Source: a virus
Length of the DNA: 34,353 bases
Virus record (IMG/VR): IMGVR_UViG_3300020436_000037
Coordinates: 1-34,353 of that record
Strand: one strand, 5' to 3'
The notes beneath the pieces were generated by a model, which had not been told where the DNA came from, searched no databases, and worked only from the letters and a program-made list of their open reading frames with translations. A program made the position numbers and the translations under genes. Each line of letters opens with the position of its first letter. The stretch's first letter is position 1. Positions 15,869 to 34,116 of this stretch are shown here, one piece after another.

Positions 15869-16195
15869 CTAATACACTTTGGCACAATCTATACCTGTAG
15901 CTGGATTTAATTTAGCTGGAGCCGATGTCATTCCAGTTCCAGGTCCAGTTGTTGAACCACCACCTGGTGCTACTACAGGTTGACCAGGATTTGTTACACA
16001 TTGAGTACCAGGTAGCATCTGTAGTCCTTTGACATCAACAGAAGCACTCTTAACAAATTTATCAATAGCATCGGCCATACCTTTAGCTATTTTTTTGTTT
16101 TTTCTTTTTATTTTAGCAGCTTCATTTAAATCAGTAGGTAAATCCATATTCAATACTGACTCTAATTCTTTAGCTAAACTAGATTTATTAAGCAT
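15869..16195 (-). CDS. Small structural-operon protein, second copy of a tandem pair
   Basis: This 108-residue protein is a tandem paralogue of the product of 16207-16548. Both begin MLNKSSLAKELESVLN, share DLPTDLNE and FVKSAS, then a MLPGT and a PGQPVV motif, a Gly/Ala/Thr-rich linker, and a C-terminal SAPAK followed by a CxKVY ending. The N-terminal half is helical, with a basic patch (IKRKNKKIAKG). The function is unknown; position between the spike gene and gp25 suggests a small baseplate component. Even the end of the gene is repeated: both copies finish GTGTATTAGGAG, with the stop codon overlapping the ribosome binding site for the next gene. Confidence 0.6.
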   Translation of the reverse strand: MLNKSSLAKELESVLNMDLPTDLNEAAKIKRKNKKIAKGMADAIDKFVKSASVDVKGLQMLPGTQCVTNPGQPVVAPGGGSTTGPGTGMTSAPAKLNPATGIDCAKVY

Positions 16196-16206
16196 ATTGT
16201 TTACTC

Positions 16207-16548
16207 CTAATACACCTTACCACATTTAATACCACTAGGTGGCATCATTTTAGCAGGTGCAGATGTTTTAGCTTGTCCAGGTCCTGATGTAGCTCCTGCT
16301 CCTCCGGCTATAGGTGGAGCGTTTACTACGGGTTGACCTGGTAATGTCATTATATTAGTGCCCGGCAACATTTGTATTTTTTTTATATCAATTGAAGCAC
16401 TTTTTACAAATTTATCTAAAGCATTAGCCATCCCTTTTGCTTTTTTCTTATTAGTACTCTTTACTTTTTTTACCTCATTTAAATCAGTAGGTAAATCCTG
16501 ATTTAGTACTGATTCTAATTCTTTAGCTAATGATGACTTGTTTAACAT
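16207..16548 (-). CDS. Small structural-operon protein, first copy of a tandem pair
   Basis: This 113-residue protein is the upstream member of the pair described for 15869-16195. The N-terminal about 30 residues are almost identical between copies, while the Gly/Pro/Ala-rich middle (about residues 72-95) has diverged in sequence and length. It has no signal peptide or membrane segment. It follows the 175-residue gene by 3 nt. No known function was recognised. Confidence 0.6.
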   Translation of the reverse strand: MLNKSSLAKELESVLNQDLPTDLNEVKKVKSTNKKKAKGMANALDKFVKSASIDIKKIQMLPGTNIMTLPGQPVVNAPPIAGGAGATSGPGQAKTSAPAKMMPPSGIKCGKVY

Positions 16549-21553: not shown

Positions 21554-22378
21554 TTAAAACTTATAGCTTGCTCTGATTACAAAATCTGAACCTTCTTCAC
21601 CTGAAAGCTCTGAAGTTAAGAAAAAGTTATCAGTACAACTATATTTAACGCCGTATATCAATTCGTTATCGGTAGAGTCATCACCATCAGAACTATACCC
21701 AATCAGAATTGATGCACCTTTGAAGATTTCAGGTGATACAACAGAGCGTAACCAAAACGCACCATTACCTTCATCTGACAAATCATACTCGAAAGAATTT
21801 TCAATTGGAAAACCAAGTACACTTACTTCTCCTGAAACATCTACAAGTAGAGCATCATTACTATTAACAGAGACACCTACAGTCTGGTCAAAGATTGAAT
21901 AAGACAGTCTTCCTGCCCAAAATTCATCATTACCATAGAGTGCTCCAACACCTATTCCTAGCTTATTAACTGAAAGACCTACACCTTCGTGAACAGAATG
22001 CTCTCTTGGTAGAGAAACAAAACTATTGTTTGATGGTCTGTGTAGACCCCAAGCTAAACCATAAGGTTCTGCTTGTTGACCAAAAGTTAATGATACATAA
22101 TCAGTTACATTCCACTTATACCAAGCTTCTTCAACTGATACCCCATCAACTTCAGTTAATACTGTACTCAATTGCCATCCGTCACCGCTTAAAGATAATC
22201 CTGTGTAAGGACTTGAGAAACTCAATACATCTTCACCTTCTAGGTTTTCACCATATGTGAAATCAGTACTAAATTCCCCTGATACTTTAATTGATGGCTC
22301 ACTTACTGTCTCTTCAGCGAAAACAATTCCACTTACAGCAAGTACTACGCATAACAATATCGTTTTTAGTGTATTCAT
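21554..22378 (-). CDS. Outer-membrane beta-barrel (porin-like) protein with signal peptide
   Basis: This 274-residue protein begins with a typical signal peptide (MNTLKTILLCVVLAVSGIVFA, likely cut after residue 21). Alternating-residue strands typical of a barrel follow: IKVSGEFSTDFTYG, LSLSGDGWQLSTVLTEV, YVSLTFGQQAEPYGLAWG, GAFWLRSVVSPEIF. It ends FVIRASYKF, the C-terminal aromatic (Phe) signal for BAM-dependent outer-membrane insertion. The first about 100 residues resemble small porins, including a conserved GQQAEPYGLAWG-type loop. Predicted location is the host outer membrane. It follows the trypsin-like protease gene after a 202-nt gap that may carry its own promoter and a hairpin. The role (receptor masking, nutrient uptake or envelope change) is unknown. 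Barrel and export call firm; porin function inferred. Confidence 0.75.
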   Translation of the reverse strand: MNTLKTILLCVVLAVSGIVFAEETVSEPSIKVSGEFSTDFTYGENLEGEDVLSFSSPYTGLSLSGDGWQLSTVLTEVDGVSVEEAWYKWNVTDYVSLTFGQQAEPYGLAWGLHRPSNNSFVSLPREHSVHEGVGLSVNKLGIGVGALYGNDEFWAGRLSYSIFDQTVGVSVNSNDALLVDVSGEVSVLGFPIENSFEYDLSDEGNGAFWLRSVVSPEIFKGASILIGYSSDGDDSTDNELIYGVKYSCTDNFFLTSELSGEEGSDFVIRASYKF

Positions 22379-22580: not shown

Positions 22581-23426
22581 TTATTTTTCTTCCTCACTAT
22601 CATCTTTTTGTTTTTTAGGGTCTTGTGTCTCTCCCCTAAGTTTAGAACAATCTTCGATAGTGTAATTATTATCATAGATGAAGTTATAATGATTTTCATC
22701 TAATAGATTATAAATTCTTTCAATTGGAATAAAGTATCCCATATGAGTTATAGCATCAGAACTAAATCCACTCGGAGATACTGATATTCTTGATGGAACA
22801 CCAATCCAATCATACTGTTTTCTTTTACTTGAATATCTATAACAAGCTCCACCACTATTACCATAGATAGTTTGAGCTGATGACATCCAATATTTATAAT
22901 GGTCTATCTCATCATCCATATAAGTAATAATACCTTCAGATGCGATAGGTGGGTGACCAAGAGAAGCTCCAACTGCAAAAACTGGGTCAAATATATGTAC
23001 ATCACTTATATCATCCATTGGAAATAAGTTTGCTACATAATCACAAGTATTCTCTGTATCTCTAACTCTTAATAATGCCCAATCTTGACCACCTTCTACT
23101 TCAGAATAGGCTACAATATCAGCTTCAACGGCAAAAGAACCAATACAATTTGAATAATTATTGTATCTAAAATATTCAACAGAAACCGTGTCTAATATCT
23201 CAGTATCTACTTTTCTTTTCAATACAGGATTCCACTTCTTAACTACTTTAATATTATCAGAAACAACATGCTGATTAGTAATAACATAAGTATAAACTTG
23301 ACCATCTACTGGATTCTTTTTTGAGTATACTACTGTACCACTACCACCCGATTTTTGAGTCCTAACCCTAACTGTCGGATAAAACATCTCTATATGTTTC
23401 TGTTTTATTTCTTTCGATGCTGACAT
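22581..23426 (-). CDS. Trypsin-like serine protease, cytoplasmic
   Basis: This 281-residue protein has the full chymotrypsin-fold triad: His53 in YVITNQHVVS, Asp115 in GGQDWALLRV, and Ser191 in TIYGNSGGACY. A GGSGTVVY strand precedes the His, and an ASLGHPPIASEGIIT strand lies before the Ser, as in HtrA/trypsin-like peptidases. There is no signal peptide, so it should act in the infected cell. T4-like phages normally use a different (gp21-type) prohead protease, so this enzyme is an addition. It lies 36 nt downstream of the tmRNA and upstream of the porin gene. The C-terminal tail is highly charged (KKQKDDSEEEK). Its target is unknown. Confidence 0.85.
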   Translation of the reverse strand: MSASKEIKQKHIEMFYPTVRVRTQKSGGSGTVVYSKKNPVDGQVYTYVITNQHVVSDNIKVVKKWNPVLKRKVDTEILDTVSVEYFRYNNYSNCIGSFAVEADIVAYSEVEGGQDWALLRVRDTENTCDYVANLFPMDDISDVHIFDPVFAVGASLGHPPIASEGIITYMDDEIDHYKYWMSSAQTIYGNSGGACYRYSSKRKQYDWIGVPSRISVSPSGFSSDAITHMGYFIPIERIYNLLDENHYNFIYDNNYTIEDCSKLRGETQDPKKQKDDSEEEK

Positions 23427-23462: not shown

Positions 23463-23809
23463 TGGAGTCGGCGGGACTCGAACCCGCGTCTTACCAGTTT
23501 CCTACATAAAGTCGTCTACAAGTTTGGATAGTTTTTCTTTAAAACTCTATCAAAAATCAAATGATGTTTTCGAGTCTTTCATTACGACTAAATGGATTAA
23601 TTACTACTCCCAACCCATTTACAGAAGGAGGTTCTTCCGATATGACACCACTTATTCCCCTATCGGAATCATCAAGGAGTGATGGGTGACTACTTACGCA
23701 GCCGCCATATATTGATATTCGTTTCCGATTATCGTTTTTTGATTCGTAAGTGAATCATACTACTTGCACTCTATGTCAAAAATCTAGCAATCGATTCCAA
23801 GTCGACCCC
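23463..23809 (-). ncRNA. ssrA: tmRNA (one-piece), encoded by the phage
   Basis: This RNA of 347 nt has both tRNA-like ends. The 5' end GGGGTCG pairs with CGACTCC at the 3' end, with a G3-U70 wobble pair and discriminator A, the determinants for alanylation. The 5' part continues ACTTGGAATCGA, matching the tmRNA D-loop signature. The 3' part has GCGGG, TTCGAGT, CCCGC, a perfect T arm. Between them an mRNA-like stretch encodes a short tag, and hairpins occupy the region between tag and 3' end. CCA is not encoded. tmRNA with SmpB releases ribosomes stalled on broken mRNA and tags the product for proteolysis. It begins 3 nt after the stop of a 52-residue gene, so it must be cut out of a longer transcript from promoter P3. 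No smpB was seen here, so host SmpB would be needed. Confidence 0.95.
23694..23726 (-). other. tmRNA tag reading frame
   Basis: The open frame GGA AAC GAA TAT CAA TAT ATG GCG GCT GCG TAA encodes GNEYQYMAAA. A Gly first codon and the Asn/Glu/Tyr content resemble tags of the Bacteroidota type. The end is AAA rather than the usual LAA, though the small hydrophobic C-terminus needed by ClpX-type proteases is kept. The resume codon is inferred from the frame and not proven. Confidence 0.8.
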
Positions 23810-23812
23810 ATA

Positions 23813-23971
23813 TTAAAAATCTAAATTATCAAATTTTTCATCTTGATAACTTTCGTCATTATCTTCTTCGGTTTGTAAAATTTCAATACACTCTAAAACA
23901 AGTTTCCAATCTTCTTCCATATAAGCTTGTTTTAATAAATCTACAACCGTTGTAATTTCATCATTACTCAT
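23813..23971 (-). CDS. Small acidic protein, unknown
   Basis: This 52-residue protein begins MSNDEITTVVDLLKQAYMEEDW, continues KLVLECIEILQTEEDNDE and ends DEKFDNLDF. It is predicted to be two helices with a strongly acidic tail. A GGAGATGTATT site precedes the ATG. It lies directly upstream of the tmRNA (3 nt between stop and 5' end), so its message must be separated from the tmRNA by processing. No family was recognised; the acidity would fit an inhibitor or DNA mimic but nothing shows this. Confidence 0.65.
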   Translation of the reverse strand: MSNDEITTVVDLLKQAYMEEDWKLVLECIEILQTEEDNDESYQDEKFDNLDF

Positions 23972-23980
23972 AATACATCT

Positions 23981-23994
23981 CCATATATACTTAT
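23981..23994 (-). promoter_or_regulatory. Possible variant of the late motif upstream of the tmRNA segment
   Basis: The minus strand reads ATAAGTATATATGG, 11 of 14 bases like the exact copies, placed 9 nt before the 52-residue gene. If active it would drive the tmRNA and protease late. The match is weak. Confidence 0.3.
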
Positions 23995-24037
23995 ATATTT
24001 AAATAATATATATCGAGTAACTTAAAAAAATAACAAA

Positions 24038-24397
24038 TTATGCTTCACCAGTTTGTGGTGAATCCTTTAGTAACTTTTTAAGTTCTTTTAATTGTTTATC
24101 TTCATCTGATATATTTTCTACTTGTTCTAATATATCTTCAAACAATCCTTTAACTTTATTATCTCGTTCTTTAATAACTTCATCCACTATTAAAGGTATT
24201 TCATCTTTACCAGCTATTCTAGCTTCTTCTAAAATTTCAGTTATAACATCTCCTTGTGTGAGACAATAATCTAAATCCTTCATCATTTTAAATATAGCAT
24301 GCTTTACCATTCTCATATCTGATGTTATTACTTTTAAATTTTCAATGATAAGCTTATTTGTTAAATCTTTTTTCGATGTAGGTTTTTTGTCACTCAT
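24038..24397 (-). CDS. Helical protein of unknown function
   Basis: This 119-residue protein starts MSDKKPTSKKDL and is mainly charged helix with heptad character (VIKERDNKVKGLFEDILEQVENISDEDKQLKELKKLL). I prefer the ATG at 24397 over one four codons upstream because GGAGAAAATT lies immediately before it. It lies between the LWNW-type membrane protein and the acidic 52-residue gene. No domain was recognised. Confidence 0.55.
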   Translation of the reverse strand: MSDKKPTSKKDLTNKLIIENLKVITSDMRMVKHAIFKMMKDLDYCLTQGDVITEILEEARIAGKDEIPLIVDEVIKERDNKVKGLFEDILEQVENISDEDKQLKELKKLLKDSPQTGEA

Positions 24398-24418
24398 AAT
24401 TTTCTCCATATTATCGTC

Positions 24419-24432
24419 TCTATTAATAAATA
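24419..24432 (-). promoter_or_regulatory. Possible late-type motif (variant H)
   Basis: The minus strand reads TATTTATTAATAGA, close to the variant at 30666-30679 (TATTTATTTATAGA). It lies 21 nt before the preferred start of the 119-residue gene. Confidence 0.35.
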
Positions 24433-24436
24433 GTCC

Positions 24437-24718
24437 TTAATCAAACAAAAGTGATTTCTTACTACTTTTTTTGTGACCTACACTACTATTTCGATTATTT
24501 TGTATCATACTACTTGTATTACCAAATAATATATTAGATAGTGCACCAATTCCAACAGCTTGTAATATATTAATAGTTGGTAATCCAAACAAATATGGCA
24601 TCAACCAGTTCCATAATAACATCAAAGGTATTGAAAGTATACATATAGTTAACAATACTAACATAAAACCAGCACACATCCAAGTAAACATTGTAAATCC
24701 ATCTATTTTATTATTCAT
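24437..24718 (-). CDS. Small membrane protein with an LWNWLMPYLFGLPTI core
   Basis: This 93-residue protein has a first membrane helix (about residues 8-34) and a conserved LLWNWLMPYLFGLPTINILQAVGIGALSNILFG region forming a second membrane element. A basic cytoplasmic tail with a run of Lys and Ser follows. The same core occurs in small inner-membrane proteins of several bacteria and phages, function unknown. It is the first gene behind promoter P3, with a short leader. The start has a GGAGATTTT site. Confidence 0.6.
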   Translation of the reverse strand: MNNKIDGFTMFTWMCAGFMLVLLTICILSIPLMLLWNWLMPYLFGLPTINILQAVGIGALSNILFGNTSSMIQNNRNSSVGHKKSSKKSLLFD

Positions 24719-24743
24719 AAAATCTCCAAAATAATTTAATTAT

Positions 24744-24773
24744 AATATAAGAGCTTTTGCTTATACGAGTCAA
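24744..24773 (-). promoter_or_regulatory. Sigma70-like promoter P3 for the tmRNA-porin unit
   Basis: A minus-strand A-rich stretch and GCTC precede TTGACT (24768-24773); an 18-bp spacer with AAAAGCTCT leads to TATATT (24744-24749). The GCTC word is repeated at 23-bp offset. Confidence 0.85.
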
Positions 24774-24791
24774 GAGCTATTTTAATGAAAT

Positions 24792-24817
24792 ATGGTGGAG
24801 CAAGGCCACCCCACCAT
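24792..24817 (-). terminator. Probable terminator hairpin after the hsp20 unit
   Basis: A 7-bp stem ATGGTGG/CCACCAT encloses a GC-rich 12-nt loop. The minus-strand continuation ATTTCATT is only moderately T-rich; the plus-strand side (TTTTCTTTG) is better. It lies between the 60-residue gene and promoter P3. Confidence 0.45.
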
Positions 24818-24866
24818 TTTCTTTGTAACCGTTTTTACGCATCGTTATCTTATCGGGAGAAAGATA

Positions 24867-25049
24867 TTATATTTCTTCATATTCAACATCTATAATTTCA
24901 TCTAGTATAAAGAACACATTTTGATTACTCTTTATTACTAAATCACAACCATAATTTTCTTTTAACTTGGAAGGATTTTCTATACGATGTGCTTCTATTT
25001 TAGCACATACCTTCCATAATTTGCCTTGAAAATTAAGTCGCTCGAACAT
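24867..25049 (-). CDS. Small protein coupled to hsp20, unknown
   Basis: This 60-residue protein starts MFERLNFQGKLWKVCAKIEAHRIEN and ends FFILDEIIDVEYEEI. Its ATG overlaps the hsp20 stop codon (TAATG), so it is translated by coupling. The beta-rich C-terminus (LVIKSNQNVFFILDEIIDVEY) suggests a small beta domain. No family was recognised. It is followed by the probable terminator at 24792-24817. Confidence 0.6.
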   Translation of the reverse strand: MFERLNFQGKLWKVCAKIEAHRIENPSKLKENYGCDLVIKSNQNVFFILDEIIDVEYEEI

Positions 25050-25510
25050 TAAGATATTTTAATGAATTTTTTCTTAGGTTGTTCAGGTTCTTTCTTAGGA
25101 ACAGATATTGATAACATACCATCTTTAAATTTAGCTGATACATTATCTCCATCCAAATGGTCTCCTAAGTTGAAAGACCTTTTAAATGATGATTGTTTCA
25201 ATTCTCTTGTTATACATTTACCACCATCTGTATCAAATCCGTGTTTATCACCTGATATGGTTAGCACTTGTTCTTCCACATCAATGGTCACATTTTTTTT
25301 ATCCAATCCAGGAATTTCTGCTACGATACCTATTTTGTCATCATATTCATAGACATTCACTTTTGGATAAGCACCTTGATTAAAAGATACACCGACTTCC
25401 TCTTGAAAAGTTGGAAATTGTTGAGCCATTAATTGGTCAAATATTTTATCAAACGGGGTTAAAAATTCATCTCGGTTGAGATGTTGTGGTTTTACTACTA
25501 TTCTTTTCAT
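25049..25510 (-). CDS. Small heat-shock protein (Hsp20/alpha-crystallin family)
   Basis: This 153-residue protein has the alpha-crystallin domain at about residues 48-145: PKVNVYEYDDKIGIVAEIPGLDKKNVTIDVEEQVLTISG, then FKRSFNLGDHLDGDNVSAKFKDGMLSISVPK, including the conserved GMLSIxVPK. The usual C-terminal I-x-I tail is only weakly present (FIKIS). Hsp20 proteins hold unfolding proteins as an oligomer, and T4-like cyanophages commonly carry one. It is preceded by a 120-nt gap holding an exact copy of the late-type motif, so it may be expressed separately from the upstream enzyme genes. The start site AGGAGAAGAACT is clear. Confidence 0.92.
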   Translation of the reverse strand: MKRIVVKPQHLNRDEFLTPFDKIFDQLMAQQFPTFQEEVGVSFNQGAYPKVNVYEYDDKIGIVAEIPGLDKKNVTIDVEEQVLTISGDKHGFDTDGGKCITRELKQSSFKRSFNLGDHLDGDNVSAKFKDGMLSISVPKKEPEQPKKKFIKIS

Positions 25511-25586
25511 AGTTCTTCTCCTATTGTTTAATTAACTATTTAGTCTAACTAATCAAATCACCCTCTTTTGAGCTGTGATTCGTATT

Positions 25587-25600
25587 TCATATATAAATAT
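25587..25600 (-). promoter_or_regulatory. Candidate late promoter motif (copy C) upstream of hsp20
   Basis: An exact copy of ATATTTATATATGA on the minus strand, 77 nt before the hsp20 start. Between motif and gene the leader can form a hairpin (AATCAC/GTGATT with inner CTC/GAG). Confidence 0.55.
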
Positions 25601-25630
25601 ATGTTATATTGTAAAAAATACAATTTTTTT

Positions 25631-26674
25631 TTATTTCAATAAATGTGGTTTAGCCTCTGTCAATCCGTTTGATGTTACTCTCACAAATTCACATTTTAAC
25701 TGATATTCTAATATGTTCTTAGCACCTACATAACTCATAGATGATTTAAGTCCATCCATAATATCAGTTATAATTCTTTTGACTTTTCCTTTATAGGTAA
25801 CCGTTGTAGAATATCCTTCCACATTTTTAGATTCACCTCTATCAGTTTTTGATTCCAGTGAAGCACTTCCTCTATACTTTTTTTGTAAGACTTCATTTGG
25901 CCATATTCCTTGTTTTGTTATTAATCCTGGTGACTCTTTAGTTCCACTTAAAAGTGAACCTAACATTATTGTGTCTGCTCCTGCACCCAATCCCTTACAT
26001 ACATCAGAAGGGCTCCTAACCCCACCATCAGCCATACAAGGAACATCGTAACTGTCTGCAACAGCAACGCAATCCCAAATGGAACTAACCATAGGTAGTC
26101 CAACACCAGTTTGAATCCTAGTACTACAAAGTGACCCACCACCAATACCAATCCTAAGGCCATCTGCACCCCATTCACAAAGGTCTCTCGTAGCTTCTTC
26201 TGTTGCAATGTTTCCAACCAAGAGGTCAAAAGTTCCTTTAACTTCATCCTTGATTCTCCTTACAGCTTGTTCTACTAATTTATGATGTCCGTGTGCGACA
26301 TCTATTAGAATTATTTGAGCTCCATTATCAACATATAATTGAGCGTTTTCTAAGTAATCACCTGTAACTCCAATTGATGCACCAATAGTCCCATCTGGTC
26401 TTTTATTTCTAAACCATTGTATTGTATTAGCTATTTCAAAAGGTTTTTTAAATCTATGTAAGAATCCCATACCACCTAACCTATCCATTTCCATACACAT
26501 ATTATAATCTGTTACGGTATCCATCGGCGAAGATACTAATGGTATATCTAACCATACATTTTTAGTTACTTGAGTTATTGTATTACAATTTTTTCTATGT
26601 TCTATATCGGAGAACTGAGGCTTTATCTGAACATCATCATATGTTAGATTTAGAGTACTTCTTGAATTGTCCAT
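25631..26674 (-). CDS. GMP reductase / IMP dehydrogenase family enzyme without CBS domains
   Basis: This 347-residue TIM-barrel protein has IPLVSSPMDTVT near the N-terminus and the active-site loop GIGGGSLCSTRIQTGVG with the nucleophile Cys183. GGVRSPSDVCKGLGAGADTIMLGSLLSG forms the phosphate-binding segment. The length equals E. coli GMP reductase (347 residues), and the C-terminal YKGKVKRIITDIMDGLKSSMSYVGA followed by EFVRVT resembles GMP reductases. The Arg-Tyr dyad of IMPDH (SSDRYFQ-type flap) is not seen, so GMP-to-IMP reduction is the more likely reaction. Its ATG lies within the end of the deformylase gene, 25 bases overlapping, with GGAGG in front. IMPDH activity cannot be excluded. 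Confidence 0.85.
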   Translation of the reverse strand: MDNSRSTLNLTYDDVQIKPQFSDIEHRKNCNTITQVTKNVWLDIPLVSSPMDTVTDYNMCMEMDRLGGMGFLHRFKKPFEIANTIQWFRNKRPDGTIGASIGVTGDYLENAQLYVDNGAQIILIDVAHGHHKLVEQAVRRIKDEVKGTFDLLVGNIATEEATRDLCEWGADGLRIGIGGGSLCSTRIQTGVGLPMVSSIWDCVAVADSYDVPCMADGGVRSPSDVCKGLGAGADTIMLGSLLSGTKESPGLITKQGIWPNEVLQKKYRGSASLESKTDRGESKNVEGYSTTVTYKGKVKRIITDIMDGLKSSMSYVGAKNILEYQLKCEFVRVTSNGLTEAKPHLLK

Positions 26675-27270
26675 CCATCCTCCAACATATTTTGTGCTTT
26701 TTTAAATTTTAAAGTCTTATTATTAGAACCATTAGATATTATAACTTTTTGGTTTCTACCAATCTTAACTGGTGCGTTAACTCCGTTTTTTATTGGTTCT
26801 TTAACATATTTTCTATCTAAAATAGTCTTACCATCTAAGTGGTCAATTTCGTGTTGAACACAAATACATTCCAATAATCCATCCATATCATTTTCGTCTT
26901 CAGGTTCAAATATCATTTTATTTTCATAATTATCACATTTTATAACTATTCTATCATATCTTTTAGTCTTAATTGGTTTTTTTGTTTTTACTGATAGACA
27001 ACCTTCTTGAAATATTATTTCATTACCAACTTCTACTATTTCTGGATTAACTAAATATATTGGTTGTGTTACATTAACAACAGCAACTCTTTTATTTATT
27101 CCAAGTTGATTTGCAGCTAAACCAATACCATCTGTATGTTTTGTTAAGTATTGAAATAATGTAGTAGCTATAATTTCCCCTTCTTTAACAGTTTCTACCT
27201 TTTCAGTAGGTACTGATAGAAGTTTTATATCTTTTACTATTTTATTATTTCTATCTATAGTCTCTAACAT
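26650..27270 (-). CDS. def: Peptide deformylase
   Basis: This 206-residue enzyme has all three deformylase motifs: GIGLAANQ (residues 48-55), EGCLS (89-93, metal ligand Cys91) and QHEIDH (139-144, ligands His140 and His144, catalytic Glu141). It removes the formyl group from the initiator Met of new proteins. Marine phages are known to carry deformylases, usually shorter (about 130-150 residues); this one has an about 45-residue C-terminal extension ending VLEDGWTIQEVL-like. The start ATG overlaps the stop of the zinc-ribbon gene in a TAATG junction. It shares the P4 unit with GMP reductase and hsp20 and lies less than 500 nt from IF-3. Confidence 0.93.
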   Translation of the reverse strand: MLETIDRNNKIVKDIKLLSVPTEKVETVKEGEIIATTLFQYLTKHTDGIGLAANQLGINKRVAVVNVTQPIYLVNPEIVEVGNEIIFQEGCLSVKTKKPIKTKRYDRIVIKCDNYENKMIFEPEDENDMDGLLECICVQHEIDHLDGKTILDRKYVKEPIKNGVNAPVKIGRNQKVIISNGSNNKTLKFKKAQNMLEDGWTIQEVL

Positions 27271-27686
27271 TATTTCTTACTCCTTTTTGCTTTTAATCTT
27301 TTCTTATATTCCTTAGCCCTTTTAAACATTTTTTCATCTTTAGATAACTTTTTTCTTTTCTTTGGTGGTTTCACTTTAGTAGGTTTAAGAGTTCCCTTTA
27401 ACTTAGGTTGTTCTTTACCTTTATGAAACACATTACCATCTTTGTCAACAAACTCATTCATCCATTGCCATCCAGGAGGTCTACCAGTTTTTTTATGTCT
27501 TTTAGCAAAGAATGTTTCCATTGGTTGTAAAGCTAAAGTTCTTTTTATAACACAATGTGAACAAGTTACAGCTACGACATCTGAATCAACCTTTACATAT
27601 TCAGATTGACAATGTCTACACTGCATATATCTTTCACCATTTTCGGTAAAAGTTATCCATTCTTGTTTTTGTTTTTTCTTAGCCAT
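27270..27686 (-). CDS. Zinc-ribbon protein with a basic tail, unknown
   Basis: This 138-residue protein has two cysteine pairs (CRHCQSEYVKV and CSHC at about residues 23-46) forming a likely zinc ribbon. A TGRPPGWQWMNEFVDKDGNVFHKG segment follows, with a GRPP AT-hook-like core, and the Lys-rich C-terminus of about 45 residues ends RLKAKRSKK. The composition suggests binding to nucleic acid or ribosomes. It is the first gene behind promoter P4 and is translationally coupled to the deformylase. No specific function was recognised. Confidence 0.6.
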   Translation of the reverse strand: MAKKKQKQEWITFTENGERYMQCRHCQSEYVKVDSDVVAVTCSHCVIKRTLALQPMETFFAKRHKKTGRPPGWQWMNEFVDKDGNVFHKGKEQPKLKGTLKPTKVKPPKKRKKLSKDEKMFKRAKEYKKRLKAKRSKK

Positions 27687-27712
27687 AATATTCTTTATTT
27701 ATTTATATTCTA

Positions 27713-27742
27713 AATATAAGAGCTTTTAATAATATAAGTCAA
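27713..27742 (-). promoter_or_regulatory. Sigma70-like promoter P4 for the deformylase-hsp20 unit
   Basis: A minus-strand A-tract and GCTC precede TTGACT (27737-27742); the 18-bp spacer contains AAAAGCTCT and is followed by TATATT (27713-27718). The promoter begins 9 nt after the IF-3 stop codon and gives a leader of about 20 nt. Confidence 0.85.
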
Positions 27743-27751
27743 GAGCTTTTT

Positions 27752-28252
27752 TTAATTGGGTATATAAAAAGCATTTAAAAACCTACCATCTAACTTTGCT
27801 TTGTTTGATAAATGACCCACCTCTGAAACTATTTCTGTAATGGTGTCCATTATAGATTGTGCTACATCTATATCATTATGTCGTCTTGGATGTGTTGATA
27901 TACTAACTTTTACCTTATTACCTTTATTTAAAAAGTCCATACACTTCTTAACCTTAGTAGTAAGGTCGTTATCAGCTATAACAGTCTTCATTCTAATTTC
28001 TTTTAAATGAACTTTATTTTTAGCTTTATTTTTTCTCTCTTGTTTACGCATGTCAAATTGGTATTTACCATAATCCATTATCTTACAAACAGGAGGATTA
28101 GACTTATCTGATACTTCTACTAAATCATAACCTTGATTTTGTGCTTTTGATATTGCTATATTGGTTGGCATTTTTCCTAATTGAGTTCCATCTATTCCTA
28201 TAACCATTACCTTACTAGATTTAATATCTGAGTTAACTTTTTTTATATTCAT
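27752..28252 (-). CDS. infC: Translation initiation factor IF-3
   Basis: This full-length, two-domain IF-3 of 166 residues (E. coli 180) has the N-domain ending in the signature SNPPVCKIMDYGKYQFDMRKQ (residues 51-71), the Lys-rich linker, then KEIRMK and the C-domain with VKVSISTHPRRHNDIDVAQSIM. IF-3 binds the 30S subunit, keeps subunits apart and rejects wrong start codons and initiator tRNAs. Phage copies are rare, reported mainly from large phages. It is the last gene of its unit, placed 16 nt after a membrane gene that appears to start at ATT, a codon IF-3 acts on. The neighbours rpmI and rplT of the bacterial operon are absent, so this is a separate phage gene. Confidence 0.95.
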   Translation of the reverse strand: MNIKKVNSDIKSSKVMVIGIDGTQLGKMPTNIAISKAQNQGYDLVEVSDKSNPPVCKIMDYGKYQFDMRKQERKNKAKNKVHLKEIRMKTVIADNDLTTKVKKCMDFLNKGNKVKVSISTHPRRHNDIDVAQSIMDTITEIVSEVGHLSNKAKLDGRFLNAFYIPN

Positions 28253-28268
28253 TGTATATTTATTATTC

Positions 28269-29261
28269 CTATTTTTGTCCTACTGCATGTTCAGAAGGTT
28301 TTTGGTCATCTGGCCCACCATCTAATGATGGGTTTCTTTTTTCAGTACCCATATCCATTCCTTCTTTAACTATCTTTTTTTCTGTTTCTTTTTGCCAAGC
28401 TTCTAATGGATTATTAGAAACTTCTTCCTCATAATGTTCACCGGTATTACCATTCTGACCTATAACATCCATTCTCTCATTTTGTTCACTTTCTTGTAAT
28501 TGTGTATAAACTTTTGGTGTAGGTGGTGTTGGTTTAAATACATCATAGTCTTTTTCACTATCATCGTCTTCTTCCCTTAATAAAGCTATGTTAAAACCAA
28601 TAACCATAATAACTGCTAGTGGGTCAAATACCAATATAAGAATAAACATAATCCACTTAACTGCAGTATCGATGTCAGTATCAAAAGCTTCTGAGATGTA
28701 AAGTAGAGGCCCTACATCAATTCCTGTATCGACCATATCTATTTCTATTTTACCAATTTTCTGTTTTAGTTCAGCTATCAATACTGACTTTTCTTGTATT
28801 AAAGGATTATACTCTTCACGAAGTTTTCTTTTAGCAGTGATATAGTTATCAGGTAATGCATTAACAGAAGCGTCTAACTCCTCTTTTAAAAAAACTTTAT
28901 CCTCTTCTAATGTTGTAAGTTGGTCTTTATAAACATTCAACTTAGTTATCATACCATCAAACTCTTGAGTAGCTCCCATATATGAGTTGGATAGAAATCC
29001 AAATATACCCATACTCGTTATACCAATCAGAACTATTGTAGCTATAGTCATATAAGTTTTTTGTAACCAATTAACTACAGACCAATATCTGTACAGAAAT
29101 GAAGCTGTAACTAACTTACCAACTTCAAGAGATGTAGCCATCAAACATACTGCTAAAAAACTTCCACTAAATAACATTCCAATACCTGTTACTGAGAAGA
29201 ATGCAGCCATTGTAGAAATAAAGAGTCCTGATAGACCTATTATGATTGTAAATAATTTAAT
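28269..29261 (-). CDS. Multi-spanning membrane protein with coiled-coil loop, probable ATT start
   Basis: This about 330-residue protein has four predicted membrane helices: near residues 2-26, 29-50, 70-92 and, after a long loop, 206-235. The loop (about 95-195) contains a coiled coil (LNVYKDQLTTLEEDKVFLKEELD and SVLIAELKQKIGKIEIDM). The C-terminal about 90 residues are hydrophilic and low-complexity. There is no ATG before residue about 18. AGGAGG followed by a 6-nt spacer leads to an in-frame ATT at 29261; the only other option, TTG at 29279, has no ribosome binding site and would put the AGGAGG inside the gene. Similar membrane proteins occur in marine T4-like phages; the function is unknown. 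It overlaps no gene but starts 1 nt after the 57-residue gene. Confidence 0.7.
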   Translation of the reverse strand: MKLFTIIIGLSGLFISTMAAFFSVTGIGMLFSGSFLAVCLMATSLEVGKLVTASFLYRYWSVVNWLQKTYMTIATIVLIGITSMGIFGFLSNSYMGATQEFDGMITKLNVYKDQLTTLEEDKVFLKEELDASVNALPDNYITAKRKLREEYNPLIQEKSVLIAELKQKIGKIEIDMVDTGIDVGPLLYISEAFDTDIDTAVKWIMFILILVFDPLAVIMVIGFNIALLREEDDDSEKDYDVFKPTPPTPKVYTQLQESEQNERMDVIGQNGNTGEHYEEEVSNNPLEAWQKETEKKIVKEGMDMGTEKRNPSLDGGPDDQKPSEHAVGQK

Positions 29262-29262
29262 T

Positions 29263-29436
29263 TTATTCCTCCTGCTCAATACTATCTTGCAAGTATTCTA
29301 CCCATCTAATAATGTTTTTTAGTTCAGCATCCATTTTATCTACTGGTATTCTATTGTATTGATTACCAACGATTAGTCTTTCTGCTGTATCATTTATATT
29401 TTCTATAAATTGTAAACATCTTTCTTTAGTTTTCAT
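29263..29436 (-). CDS. Small helical protein, unknown
   Basis: This 57-residue protein starts MKTKERCLQFIENINDTAERL, has a middle segment NQYNRIPVDKMDAELKNII and ends YLQDSIEQEE; it is predicted to be all helix. Its last codons contain the AGGAGG that appears to serve the downstream membrane gene, giving tight coupling (GAG CAG GAG GAA TAA). No recognised family. The start has only a weak upstream site (CTGGAGTTAAT). Confidence 0.6.
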   Translation of the reverse strand: MKTKERCLQFIENINDTAERLIVGNQYNRIPVDKMDAELKNIIRWVEYLQDSIEQEE

Positions 29437-29486
29437 ATTAACTCCAGTTTATTAATTATAAATATAAATATAATAATAATATAATA

Positions 29487-30056
29487 TTATATTCTTCCAG
29501 CTTTTTTTAGTTTATCTATGATAAGATTCATAGTTTCTCCCTTGTTCTCAGAATTATGCCATACCAGGGCATTACTATTCCTATACACATTAATATCATT
29601 TTTTAATGCGTTAACTTTTGATGTCATCAATCTAATGTGTGATTCGTCAATCTCTGGAAGTTTAATTTCTAACTCGTCAGCTAAATCAAATAAACTTACC
29701 AAATCATTTTCGTGATAACTATGTACTGCTTGTTTATACTTCTTTACAAGACTTTTTTTTAATTGATTATTTGGTAATTGTTCTAACTTATCAGGGTGTG
29801 TTCTTGTAACTATTCTTCTATAAACTTTTTTTACACTATTAATTTCATCATTATCATTTGTTATTTTTTGTTTGGACTTTTTTTTATTCTCTTGTTTGAC
29901 TCGTTCATTAGCCTTTTCAAACTCCGGAACTAGCTTTTTAAATTCATTTTCGAAATCAGGTAATACTTTTCGAAGTAGATGTACTAATTCCTCTTTTTCT
30001 GCTGTGAGATATTTTATTTCGTATTTTAATTTCTTGTATTTTAGTTGTATTGACAT
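29487..30056 (-). CDS. J-domain (DnaJ-like) protein
   Basis: This 189-residue protein has a J-domain core at about residues 72-125: VKKVYRRIVTRTHPDKLEQL with the HPD motif (His87-Pro88-Asp89) that stimulates Hsp70 ATPase, then a helix with LVKKYKQAVHSYHEND. The N-terminal part is a long charged coiled coil (LKYEIKYLTAEKEELVHLLRKV). Zinc-finger and C-terminal substrate domains of full DnaJ are absent, so it probably recruits host DnaK to a phage target. Together with Hsp20 it forms a chaperone set. It may be read from a late-type motif at 30065-30078 immediately before its start. Confidence 0.85.
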   Translation of the reverse strand: MSIQLKYKKLKYEIKYLTAEKEELVHLLRKVLPDFENEFKKLVPEFEKANERVKQENKKKSKQKITNDNDEINSVKKVYRRIVTRTHPDKLEQLPNNQLKKSLVKKYKQAVHSYHENDLVSLFDLADELEIKLPEIDESHIRLMTSKVNALKNDINVYRNSNALVWHNSENKGETMNLIIDKLKKAGRI

Positions 30057-30064
30057 AACTCATT

Positions 30065-30078
30065 CTATATATAAGTAT
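30065..30078 (-). promoter_or_regulatory. Possible late-type motif (variant D) before the J-protein
   Basis: The minus strand reads ATACTTATATATAG, 12 of 14 like the exact copies. It is only 8 nt from the start codon, so a transcript starting here would have almost no leader. Confidence 0.35.
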
Positions 30079-30102
30079 ATACAACTTAAATAAAACAACC
30101 AG

Positions 30103-30648
30103 CTATTTTTTAGCTCTTTTTATACCTATCTCTTTACACATCTCATCAAGTGATTGTCCAGTATCTTTTCTTCTATCTCGTTCAGAACAATAAATTTTAT
30201 ATTTCTCATATTCAGATATATTTGTCATTTTTTGAAGTATAGACTCTATATGAGTTAAATTCATAGATTCAGAAAAATAAGGTTTGACATCAGTTACCTC
30301 TATTATTTCAGGTTCTTTATTTTTCTTTTTATTTTCATCATTTAATATATCTCTTGCAAACTTTCTACGCTTATCATTCTCTTCTTCGTTTTTAGGGTCA
30401 TTTAAACCTCTTTGAAGCATTCTTAAATATCGTTCAAGTTTTTTCATTCGTATTTCTTCATCTTTAGATAGAGGTTGAGATTCCCCAACATACTTAGCAT
30501 TTTCTAATTCACCTAATAGATAAGCATAGAATTGTATACTACCCTTATCTTGTATGTTGCATGCTTCGACATATGCATCAGATATGAGTTCCATAAGAGC
30601 ATTCATAGTATCTTCGTCTATTGAAAAATGTTTCATCTTATTCCCCAT
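30103..30648 (-). CDS. Helical protein of unknown function
   Basis: This 181-residue protein has an N-terminal helix with ALMELISDAYVEACNIQDKGSIQFYAYLLGELE, a highly charged middle (residues about 80-115: LRMLQRGLNDPKNEEENDKRRKFARDILND) and a C-terminal YKIYCSERDRRKDTGQSLDEMCKEIGIKRAKK. The final helix-turn-helix-like pattern (SLDEMCKEIGIKRAKK) could bind nucleic acid, but this is weak. It is the first gene after the terminator at 30685-30708 and the motif at 30666-30679. The start could also be four codons downstream. Confidence 0.5.
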   Translation of the reverse strand: MGNKMKHFSIDEDTMNALMELISDAYVEACNIQDKGSIQFYAYLLGELENAKYVGESQPLSKDEEIRMKKLERYLRMLQRGLNDPKNEEENDKRRKFARDILNDENKKKNKEPEIIEVTDVKPYFSESMNLTHIESILQKMTNISEYEKYKIYCSERDRRKDTGQSLDEMCKEIGIKRAKK

Positions 30649-30665
30649 TGTTATTTAATCTTTCC

Positions 30666-30679
30666 TCTATAAATAAATA
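30666..30679 (-). promoter_or_regulatory. Candidate late-type promoter motif (variant G)
   Basis: The minus strand reads TATTTATTTATAGA, directly behind the terminator at 30685-30708 and 17 nt before the start at 30648. The terminator-then-motif arrangement repeats that at 18867-18916. Confidence 0.5.
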
Positions 30680-30684
30680 GTATC

Positions 30685-30708
30685 AAAAATCCTGAAACTA
30701 CTTCAGAA
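30685..30708 (-). terminator. Rho-independent terminator overlapping the end of the Smr gene
   Basis: On the minus strand TTCTGAA and TTCAGGA form a 7-bp stem (one G-U) with loop GTAGT, followed by TTTTT. The 5' arm contains the last codons of the Smr gene and its TAG. Confidence 0.8.
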
Positions 30709-30898
30709 TTTTAAATTGTGCATATCCCCAAGTTTCAAATTCAATATCGTGAATCATTAATGTGTTTATAACTATTTGTCTCATTCTATCTGAATTACCC
30801 GTAATAATAGTTAAGGGTGGTTCATTTAATAGAACGAAATTTTCTACTAATCTCTCCACATCGATGTGTCGCACGCCGTGGAGGTCTAATTTTTTCAT
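30698..30898 (-). CDS. Mini Smr-domain protein
   Basis: This 66-residue protein is essentially a bare Smr domain: LDLHGVRHIDVERLVENFV carries the DLH (DxH) motif near residue 6, then TIITGNSDRMRQIVINTL, and the final strand WGYAQFKIL. Smr domains (SmrB, MutS2) cut mRNA or sense collided ribosomes, feeding stalled ribosomes to rescue systems. The usual HGKGxG is replaced by TGNSDRM, so the second motif is altered and nuclease activity is uncertain. A TAAGG precedes the ATG by 6 nt. It lies at the end of the unit that contains the tRNA and phosphomannomutase-like genes. Moderately sure of the domain; the link to rescue is inference. Confidence 0.6.
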   Translation of the reverse strand: MKKLDLHGVRHIDVERLVENFVLLNEPPLTIITGNSDRMRQIVINTLMIHDIEFETWGYAQFKILK

Positions 30899-30928
30899 AG
30901 GAAGCCTTAAAGGAAGCCGAAAACGACG

Positions 30929-31159
30929 CTATGAACGAATTTCTTCGCCGTACATCGTGTACATTTTTTGTGGCTTAGGCTCTTCCTTACCATCGTCTGT
31001 ATAGCATTCACCTCTAGAGCAATCAATGATGAATATTCGTTCTCCGGCTCTTTGGAATACATGCTCTATTGCCTCTGTAAGGGATTCCATTGTTTCACCA
31101 TCCTTGACATCTCTCCATCTGTCTCCGGGTGGCATTCTTGTTAATACTAATTCTTTCAT
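30929..31159 (-). CDS. Small protein, unknown
   Basis: This 76-residue protein starts MKELVLTRMPPGDRWRDVKDGETMESLTEAIEHVFQRAGERIF and then IIDCSRGECYTDDG. It is more basic and GC-richer than its neighbours. Its ribosome binding site GGAGAAGTAGA overlaps the stop of the phosphomannomutase-like gene. No family was recognised; beta-strand IFIID followed by C-S-R-G-E-C might suggest a small alpha/beta fold. Confidence 0.55.
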   Translation of the reverse strand: MKELVLTRMPPGDRWRDVKDGETMESLTEAIEHVFQRAGERIFIIDCSRGECYTDDGKEEPKPQKMYTMYGEEIRS

Positions 31160-31160
31160 T

Positions 31161-31922
31161 CTACTTCTCCGCTTCTATTGTCTGTAATATTTCCATAGTT
31201 TGGTCTGGACCTTCTGTCTGAAATACTCTACAGTTATGAGTATCATTCATTCTTTTAGCTAGTGGATAATCATTACCACCCTCTTCGGTCTTATCACCTA
31301 TAAATATATATTTAGCAGGTTCTCCAAAAGGAATAGCATATTTCTCTTCCAAATTATCCAATACTTGAGCTTTATTCCAACCTCTAGGAGCTATATCAAT
31401 ACTAATCTGACCACCACAAACTGCTTCTAATTGTGGCCACATCTTATTAATTGTAAAACATATTCTCTTACGCTCTTCTGATGTCTTGTCCCATTTATAA
31501 TAATCTAATCTATTTTCATAACTACAATCTCTACCGACTATACTGAAGTTTAACATACTACCACGATTCTCTATATGAGTTCCATATCGACCCTTATACG
31601 AACTATCTTTTAATTGCTGGTGTAGGTAGTCGATAAGTGCTTTATGTGGTTGAAAATCCCTACTATAGACCTTATTATACGATAGTGTATTTTGGTCTAA
31701 CTCCCATAACTGATTACCACCACAACAGAATAATCCTTCTGCCTTATCAAGAGTTGGTAGAGGTACTTGTTCTTTCATCTTATCTAAATCGCTTCCAGTT
31801 ACTAAGTAGAATTTATTCCTACTACTCCATTCTGAAAAGAATTTAGAAAAATCTTGTGTCATTTTTTGCCGTGAAGGCGTTAATGTACCATCACAATCAA
31901 ATATATATATTTTATTTGACAT
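31161..31922 (-). CDS. Phosphomannomutase-like HAD enzyme (eukaryotic PMM type)
   Basis: This 253-residue protein starts IYIFDCDGTLTPSR, the HAD motif with Asp9 and Asp11 and the TLTPxR of alpha-phosphomannomutases. It also has LNFSIVGRDCSYENR, a SIDIAPRGWNKAQVL segment (matching the PMM sugar-binding DxxPxGWDK) and FIGDKTEEGGNDYPL (matching FFGDKTxPGGNDxE). The length is close to human PMM1/PMM2 (262 and 246). These enzymes interconvert mannose-6- and mannose-1-phosphate, feeding GDP-mannose and glycan synthesis. A mutase or phosphatase of a related sugar is also possible. Its start overlaps the preceding gene by 11 nt, with a GGAGAAAATATA site. Confidence 0.78.
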   Translation of the reverse strand: MSNKIYIFDCDGTLTPSRQKMTQDFSKFFSEWSSRNKFYLVTGSDLDKMKEQVPLPTLDKAEGLFCCGGNQLWELDQNTLSYNKVYSRDFQPHKALIDYLHQQLKDSSYKGRYGTHIENRGSMLNFSIVGRDCSYENRLDYYKWDKTSEERKRICFTINKMWPQLEAVCGGQISIDIAPRGWNKAQVLDNLEEKYAIPFGEPAKYIFIGDKTEEGGNDYPLAKRMNDTHNCRVFQTEGPDQTMEILQTIEAEK

Positions 31923-32199
31923 TATATTTTCTCCATAAGTTGTTACATTGCTTTAATTCTAATTCAGTTGGAACACCACCATCCATTACAATACTATCTG
32001 TTAATGTATTAACAAAATCCCAATCTTCTTCATTTGTAGGCCCTATAACAATTATAAGTTTTTTAAGCTTACTAATAACTTGATTTCTTGCTTTTCTACT
32101 TGGGTCTAATACATCTACTAATTTATTACTCATATTGTATTCCTTCATTTGTTGTTCAGTATGACGCTTTATCCATCTTGAATCACTTTTTGTTATCAT
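31912..32199 (-). CDS. Small protein with C-terminal NNLWRKYN motif
   Basis: This 95-residue protein has KSDSRWIKRHTEQQM at the N-terminus, a basic middle (PSRKARNQVISKLKKLI) and an ending KQCNNLWRKYNVK. The last dozen residues resemble the ends of the genes at 32941-33177 (NDMWRQYG) and 33164-33532 (NDLWGKYN). The ATG overlaps the previous gene's stop in TAATG. Function unknown. Confidence 0.6.
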   Translation of the reverse strand: MITKSDSRWIKRHTEQQMKEYNMSNKLVDVLDPSRKARNQVISKLKKLIIVIGPTNEEDWDFVNTLTDSIVMDGGVPTELELKQCNNLWRKYNVK

Positions 32200-32447
32200 T
32201 ATAGTTTTTCTCTATTTTCATAATCACCAACTCTTCTACGATATACAGTTTCTCCACCATCTGGTGATTCATAGATATAAGTTGCTTTATTGCTCTCATT
32301 TAGAAAATAATTTCTTATTTTCTTACCAAGTTTCATATTATTAGGTTCATCGTGAACCATAGTTTTTATTGTTTTTAAAATATCTTTTAATTCACTTTCT
32401 TGTGCATAAGAATCTGCTAGTAAATCTTTATAATCTGATTTTTCCAC
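32199..32447 (-). CDS. Small protein with YESPDGGETVYRR motif
   Basis: This 82-residue protein has a helical N-terminal half and a C-terminal IYESPDGGETVYRRRVGDYENREKL. The SPDGGxTVYRR ending is a pattern I have seen in small T4-like cyanophage proteins; the function is unknown. It most likely starts at GTG (32447), since AGGAGGTTAAT lies just in front and no ATG in this frame exists there. It ends in a TAATG junction with the next gene. Confidence 0.6.
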   Translation of the reverse strand: MEKSDYKDLLADSYAQESELKDILKTIKTMVHDEPNNMKLGKKIRNYFLNESNKATYIYESPDGGETVYRRRVGDYENREKL

Positions 32448-32448
32448 A

Positions 32449-32622
32449 TTAACCTCCTGTTAGTTTAGTTATAATATATAATTGTAATAATACGGTAGTT
32501 ACAGCTAGTAGTGTTCTTATAAATTCCATTATATGATTATACTTATCTAACCATATTTCTATTTTATTTCTTTTTGTTGGATATGGTGTTGATACTTCCC
32601 AACCTTTTTTCTTGGTATACAT
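32449..32622 (-). CDS. Small single-span membrane protein
   Basis: This 57-residue protein has a basic N-terminus (MYTKKKGWEVSTPYPTKRNK), an amphipathic helix, then a membrane span near residues 33-52 (FIRTLLAVTTVLLQLYIITKL). It is short and not otherwise recognisable. An ACGAGGAATAATACTA stretch precedes the ATG. Its end contains AGGAGG serving the GTG start of the next gene. Confidence 0.6.
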   Translation of the reverse strand: MYTKKKGWEVSTPYPTKRNKIEIWLDKYNHIMEFIRTLLAVTTVLLQLYIITKLTGG

Positions 32623-32654
32623 TAGTATTATTCCTCGTTAATTATTTTTAAATT

Positions 32655-32709
32655 TGGTCGTATCCGGTAGCACAAGCCTCAGCGGTTTTATCCGAGTCTT
32701 CAACGACCA
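32655..32709 (-). ncRNA. Candidate small structured RNA next to the tRNA
   Basis: This 55-nt segment is about half G+C in a genome near 30%, and its ends are a perfect 7-bp stem TGGTCGT/ACGACCA. Inner bases can form a further hairpin (CTCGG/CTGAG). It begins 3 nt after the tRNA-Ala 3' end. A 20-codon frame (32648-32710) coincides with it but has no ribosome binding site. In T4 two stable non-tRNA RNAs lie in the tRNA cluster, which makes a third type of RNA here plausible. Confidence 0.4.
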
Positions 32710-32712
32710 TTG

Positions 32713-32785
32713 TGGAGATGACAGGATTCGAACCTGCGACCCCTACAGTGCAAGTGTAGTGCTCTCCCAACTGAGCTACATCCCC
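32713..32785 (-). tRNA. tRNA-Ala (anticodon UGC)
   Basis: The 73-nt minus-strand sequence folds as a normal tRNA: acceptor GGGGATG/CATCTCC with a G3-U70 pair (the alanine identity element), discriminator A, D arm GCTC/GAGC, anticodon stem CTACA/TGTAG with loop CTTGCAC (anticodon TGC at 32750-32752), and T arm GCAGG TTCGAAT CCTGT. CCA is not encoded. It lies 10 nt behind a small membrane gene. Confidence 0.95.
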
Positions 32786-34069: not shown

Positions 34070-34099
34070 AATATACGAGCTTTTATAAGTACTTGTCAA
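34070..34099 (-). promoter_or_regulatory. Sigma70-like promoter P5
   Basis: A minus-strand A-tract and GCTC precede a consensus TTGACA (34094-34099), an 18-bp spacer with AAAAGCTCG and TATATT (34070-34075). It lies directly behind the apt stop codon; an AGCTTTTT/AAAAAGCT inverted repeat at its upstream edge could serve as a weak terminator. Confidence 0.85.
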
Positions 34100-34116
34100 G
34101 AGCTTTTTTTAAAAAG

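Follow-up and report, generated by a model that had tools for sequence, protein, structure and literature searches.

The stretch of DNA analysed here (the window), a virus record from IMG/VR, is 34,353 bases long with a G+C content of 31%, and within about 9 kb it carries genes for initiation factor 3 (IF-3, infC), peptide deformylase (def), tRNA-Ala, transfer-messenger RNA (tmRNA, ssrA) and a small Smr-domain protein. An earlier note on this DNA had read these five as a set by which a phage takes over host translation. All five proved to be real, as judged by Rfam, ARAGORN, Pfam and a structural model of the Smr protein (Table 1), and comparison across genomes indicates that two of them, def and ssrA, are stable neighbours, fixed in order and strand, in many related phages. 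The window also holds T4-like tail and baseplate genes, and the phage is a member of a large uncultured T4-like group. The observation that the five genes share one strand was correct, but it carries no information on linkage, because nearly all genes of the window lie on the minus strand.

The tmRNA gene is a one-piece form that matched RF00023 with 108.8 bits (E=7.5e-42; 23809-23460, minus strand). It has a tRNA-like domain with the G3-U70 pair, a tmRNA D-loop and a T arm, together with a reading frame for the tag GNEYQYMAAA, which terminates in small hydrophobic residues followed by a stop codon. In a comparison of eight relatives the G3-U70 pair never varies, whereas at acceptor-stem pairs 4, 5 and 6 and at three pairs of the T stem both partners are exchanged in some sequences and the pairing is preserved. 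The tag peptide is identical in the window and in the relatives G001 and G018, with only synonymous codon differences. These compensatory and synonymous changes argue that the tmRNA is a maintained gene and not a remnant. SmpB was found neither in the window nor in 38 of the 39 tmRNA-bearing records, and thus the phage tmRNA would need host SmpB as its partner. A nucleotide search for this tmRNA in named phages gave no match. The earlier note had also made much of G3-U70 in both RNAs, and hence of their dependence on alanine: the pair is present in tmRNA and tRNA-Ala alike, neither of which encodes CCA, but as the ordinary universal alanine identity element it was discarded as special evidence.

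The deformylase is full length and keeps its three metal/active-site motifs (GxGxAAxQ, EGCLS and HExDH) intact as GIGLAANQ, EGCLS and QHEIDH. IF-3 is likewise full length, with both of its domains scoring above the curated cut-offs (PF05198, 1.6e-25 and 89.5 bits; PF00707, 6e-20 and 71.4 bits), and in an alignment the phage protein departs from E. coli IF-3 at several basic residues of the C-domain. Between the two lies a small cysteine-rich open reading frame (ORF), here called the Zn-ORF, which follows infC after a gap of 65 nt and overlaps def; def in turn overlaps an IMP dehydrogenase/GMP reductase-like gene by 25 nt. As to the linked units of the earlier note, this run from infC to the IMP dehydrogenase-like gene is tightly spaced or overlapping, whereas tRNA-Ala and Smr, and separately the tmRNA, belong to other units, divided off by the early-promoter-like repeats at 34103, 27746 and 24777.

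The association of def with ssrA was followed across relatives. A tmRNA lies within 5 kb downstream and on the same strand at 27 of the 66 related deformylase loci that have at least 5 kb of downstream sequence, a count that is a lower bound, since the search pattern missed some tmRNAs found by Rfam (for example in G025 and G033). Upstream of deformylase, no tmRNA was found at any of the 44 loci with 5 kb of upstream sequence. Among 40 records selected through gp6, a tail gene unrelated to the pair, deformylase was present in 7, tmRNA in 11 and both in 6, so that tmRNA accompanied deformylase in 6/7 records compared with 5/33 of the others (Fisher p=7e-4). The huge phage LR756508 likewise has a deformylase gene and a tmRNA gene, about 2.7 kb apart.

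The remaining members of the set do not share this constancy; co-inheritance of all five parts was not seen in relatives, where the def-ssrA pair alone held. Outside the window, infC was detected in only 2 of 50 related records by a profile search, and the scans of viral contigs for IF-3 and HD proteins reached few relatives. Since the neighbours of infC occur without it in G014, and since only those two records were positive, infC looks like a clade-specific gain. The relative G017, whose proteins are 53-65% identical, retains the order infC, Zn-ORF, def ... tmRNA, protease, but the IMP dehydrogenase-like gene, Smr and tRNA-Ala are missing from the matching region and a tRNA-Met adjoins the tmRNA instead. 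Thus, the co-occurrence of infC, def, ssrA and smr that the earlier note had proposed as a check is non-random for def and ssrA, with infC rare and Smr patchy.

The 66-aa Smr ORF fell below the Pfam threshold (PF01713: 13.2 bits, where 25.7 are required; E=0.11). We nevertheless accept it as a genuine, though minimal, Smr domain, because its relatives score better (E about 1e-4, about 16-19 bits), the LDLHG and TGNS motifs are common to them in a family alignment, the AlphaFold model is confident (predicted local distance difference test 94.5) and the six best PDB matches of that model by Foldseek are all Smr domains. The model shows the order E-H-E-H-E-E, that is, the beta-alpha-beta-alpha-beta-beta fold with LDLHG and TGxx loops; the protein is a bare domain without an extra ribosome-binding domain. 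Smr relatives are found in G021, G022, G029 and G039 and in nine other contigs, two of which have a tmRNA, so Smr is distributed patchily among relatives both with and without tmRNA. At the corresponding site in G017, the one informative relative with IF-3, Smr is lacking. As for the tRNA-Ala, GCA and GCT make up 364 of the 388 alanine codons. In the relative G026, ARAGORN also reported a tRNA-SeC-like gene of 95 nt whose anticodon is TCA (L183:8633-8727).

The minus strand carries copies of a promoter-like repeat, GCTCTTGAC-N-AAAAGCT-TATATT, at 34103, 27746, 24777 and 21032 and a weaker one at 442, and no such repeat was found on the plus strand of the window. Near-identical copies of three repeats, including those at 27746 and 24777, are present in G001, and a looser form, TTGAC...TATATT, in other relatives. 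By these repeats, the five genes split into three putative early-promoter units, and the shared motif makes joint early expression of the three units plausible.

Table 1. Features of the window, and tmRNA loci of relatives discussed in the text.
Feature	Position	Strand	Evidence or remark
Early-promoter-like repeat	34070..34103	-	Heads unit with tRNA-Ala, Smr and infC
tRNA-Ala (TGC anticodon, UGC), G3-U70	32712..32785	-	ARAGORN and Rfam, 71 bits
66-aa minimal Smr domain (LDLHG, TGNS)	30698..30898	-	Family alignment, model, Foldseek Smr matches
infC, two-domain IF-3	27752..28252	-	PF05198, PF00707; PDB homologues; alignment
Early-promoter-like repeat	27712..27746	-	Heads Zn-ORF, def, IMP dehydrogenase-like and Hsp20 unit
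Zn-ORF, small Cys-rich (zinc-finger-like)	27270..27686	-	Directly upstream of def; constant def neighbour in relatives (synteny)
def, peptide deformylase	26650..27270	-	PF01327, E=1.4e-26; PDB homologues
IMP dehydrogenase/GMP reductase-like gene	25631..26674	-	PF00478, 1.1e-95; overlaps def
Hsp20, in def unit	25049..25510	-	PF00011; neighbour conserved in relatives (synteny)
Early-promoter-like repeat	24743..24777	-	Heads unit containing tmRNA
tmRNA gene (ssrA), one-piece, CCA not encoded, G3-U70	23463..23809	-	Rfam, ARAGORN, covariation in 8 relatives
Tag reading frame GNEYQYMAAA and stop	23694..23726	-	ARAGORN
Trypsin-like protease gene	22581-23426		Directly behind tmRNA; 71-99% identity in relatives; recurrent neighbour of def-tmRNA region
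Weakly porin-like membrane protein gene	21554-22378		Recurrent neighbour of def-tmRNA region
Long-tag tmRNAs of relatives	L130, L131, L140, L142, L149, L151, L153, L155, L156, L162, L163, L045, L052, L081, L119, L121, L124, L129, L168, L185		
Mini-tmRNAs of relatives	L184:12301-12421 (G021); L211:1501-1612 (LR756508); L313:750-886 (LR756511); L318:11319-11437; L320:4715-4853 = L323:4091-4229; L321:5986-6096; L322:3424-3546		

The tmRNAs of relatives depart from the window's form in two directions. Those of 403-439 nt encode tags of 34-42 aa, 20 of them distinct, in which the start is conserved as G[DE]xSLxGLxIDWHLA and the end is of the ..QPSYAYAA type; their start codon is our own reading, taken by analogy with the short class to be a GGC that lies some 12 nt beyond pseudoknot 1, and ARAGORN sets some starts later. 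The codons for L, I, H, L and A in this motif vary synonymously, which shows that the long tags are under selection at the peptide level. The other departure is a group of mini-tmRNAs of 111-139 nt, which pass the Rfam tmRNA cut-off while lacking about 300 positions of the model. They comprise a tRNA-like domain that has G3-U70, plus a P2-type helix, and no tag frame is recognisable in them. A relaxed pattern for them matched seven contigs, among which L319 was unconfirmed by Rfam. In G021 the mini-tmRNA occupies the usual tmRNA site behind def and adjoins a tRNA-Ala, while two huge phages have a mini-tmRNA as well as a full tmRNA. Mycobacteriophage DS6A is known to have a message-less tmRNA, and inhibition of tmRNA is known for a similar molecule (PMC4131195); few message-less forms stand among the 79 phage sequences of the tmRNA database (PMC11915505). 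The mini-tmRNAs resemble that of DS6A in having a tRNA-like domain and no message, whereas the window tmRNA is complete, and by this likeness they are possibly inhibitors of tmRNA/SmpB.

Taken with the intact genes, the RNA and tag under selection, the conserved def-ssrA order and the promoter-like units, the window is probably best explained by separate early translation-support genes of a T4-like phage, arranged around a stable def-ssrA core, with IF-3, tRNA-Ala and the minimal Smr as additions made in this clade. Under this reading, the early genes would keep host ribosomes productive: the tmRNA, charged by host alanyl-tRNA synthetase and working with host SmpB, would release ribosomes stalled on broken mRNAs and tag their products; deformylase would stop N-terminal processing from limiting the output of phage protein; IF-3 would aid subunit recycling and initiation; and tRNA-Ala would supply the GCA/GCT-rich code. 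What each gene does during infection, and how the phage gains from it, is inferred. Several points count against the reading. The host already has its own copies of all these functions, so that the benefit is assumed; the records compared are kin to each other, which makes the p-values too optimistic; and nearly all of them are fragments, which makes absences weak.

The compactness of the set invites a stronger interpretation, in which the five genes are one evolved takeover system acting jointly on initiation, elongation, collision sensing and rescue. All five do lie inside 9.3 kb; in E. coli, collided ribosomes recruit SmrB, which cuts the mRNA, a step upstream of rescue (PMC10897456); and in the 595-kb phage LR756511, IF-3, deformylase and tmRNA sit on one strand within about 15.6 kb (L314:2963-18632). 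That phage is the only one of 10 IF-3 jumbo phages with the three close together. IF-3 and tmRNA are far apart in LR756504, as are IF-3 and deformylase in Phosso, and the remaining 7 have neither a deformylase nor an above-cut-off tmRNA. Within the window's own kin, the rarity of infC, the uneven occurrence of Smr with its absence from G017, the change of tRNA species and the three promoter units all speak against a single system, which we consider quite unlikely. The idea of a takeover set is thus only partly supported: the def-ssrA core is conserved, but the co-occurrence test splits the set, tRNA-Ala gives way to tRNA-Met in G017, the five are not one fixed system, and the evidence does not set "takeover" apart from "support". 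The opposite view, that an early cargo region merely collected auxiliary genes without functional linkage, draws on the interleaving of the translation genes with Hsp20, the IMP dehydrogenase-like gene, a PMM-like phosphatase and numerous small ORFs, and on the varying gene content of the region between relatives. It fits poorly with a def-tmRNA order and strand that stay constant over large divergence and recur in LR756508, and seems very unlikely.

A further alternative concerns the tmRNA itself, which might serve mainly as a phage-specific tagging device whose tag redirects or protects proteins, as opposed to copying host degradation tagging. The motif retained through synonymous changes in the long tags of relatives would suit such a role, and none of the def-linked tags found ends in LAA; the commonest tag length in databases is 10 aa (PMC11915505). 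The window tag, however, is an ordinary one of 10 aa, and non-LAA endings were ruled out as a phage-specific trait by a genome scan, in which GNDYNYAYAA and similar tags appeared in Bacteroidota and Desulfovibrio. We regard this explanation as rather unlikely. For the lineage's deformylase-linked tmRNAs, it is conceivable, if doubtful, that they form a dedicated phage tagging system that would send rescued polypeptides to a phage-chosen fate over host degradation.

The preferred reading, separate support genes around a def-ssrA core, has counterparts in known phages. Huge phages encode IF-3, peptide deformylase, tmRNA and tRNAs, described as interception of translation and read as supporting or redirecting that of the host (Al-Shayeb et al., 2020, PMC7162821); the window resembles them in content and differs in coming from a T4-like lineage known mostly as fragments, in which def and ssrA are stable neighbours. 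tmRNA has been reported in 402 of 18,146 phage genomes, and in the marine T4-like methylophage Melnitz it lies just behind an early promoter (PMC9004378), as is predicted here, with the same proposed role of maintaining hijacked machinery; the Melnitz tmRNA, however, is two-piece, permuted and under a glutamine riboswitch, whereas that of the window is one-piece and linked to deformylase. Like the deformylases of cyanophages (Frank et al., 2013, as cited in PMC7162821) and vibriophages, the window enzyme has a Pep_deformylase domain with its motifs intact, but it is longer (206 aa) and its best named-phage matches reach 31-41% identity. The IF-3 is phage-encoded and two-domain like those of the jumbo phages Asteriusvirus, Mimasvirus and Atu_ph07; in the jumbo phages inspected, IF-3 genes usually adjoin ClpS-like or ClpX-like genes, a different recurring neighbourhood (loci L296, L297 and L299-L303), while that of the window adjoins the Zn-ORF and def. 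In Vibrio phage 2.275.O, IF-3 additionally adjoins S21, and the cluster of LR756511 is apparently a separate clustering of the same functions.

The baseplate wedge protein of the window has no close named relative, its top named matches being Microcystis phage Mel-JY01 (48%), Flavobacterium immuto phages (43%) and LR756508 (42%). The tag type, the CCA that is not encoded and the Flavobacterium phage relative make the host lean towards Bacteroidota, which is unproven. Far-T4-like phages, which have been tied to marine Bacteroidetes (PMC7198788), may be a group close to the window phage; the Far-T4 genome paper (PMC4360716) names no tmRNA, deformylase or initiation factor in its text. No ribosomal protein or elongation factor was found among the window proteins examined. 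In the baseplate region, two tandem small ORFs (15869-16195 and 16207-16548) are clearly paralogous (MLNKSSLAKELESVLN...).

Phage-encoded IF-3, deformylase and tmRNA were already known. What is new is the def-ssrA linkage, the selected tags of 34-42 aa and the further message-less mini-tmRNAs, for none of which did the open-access literature searched hold an earlier account. Ribosome rescue and N-terminal deformylation are stably paired across a wide group of uncultured T4-like phages, and with this pair the reason why phages carry tmRNA, a long-standing question, can be tested directly. The long conserved tags and message-less tmRNAs of relatives suggest that trans-translation has evolved in several ways in phages: as support, as re-tagging and as inhibition.

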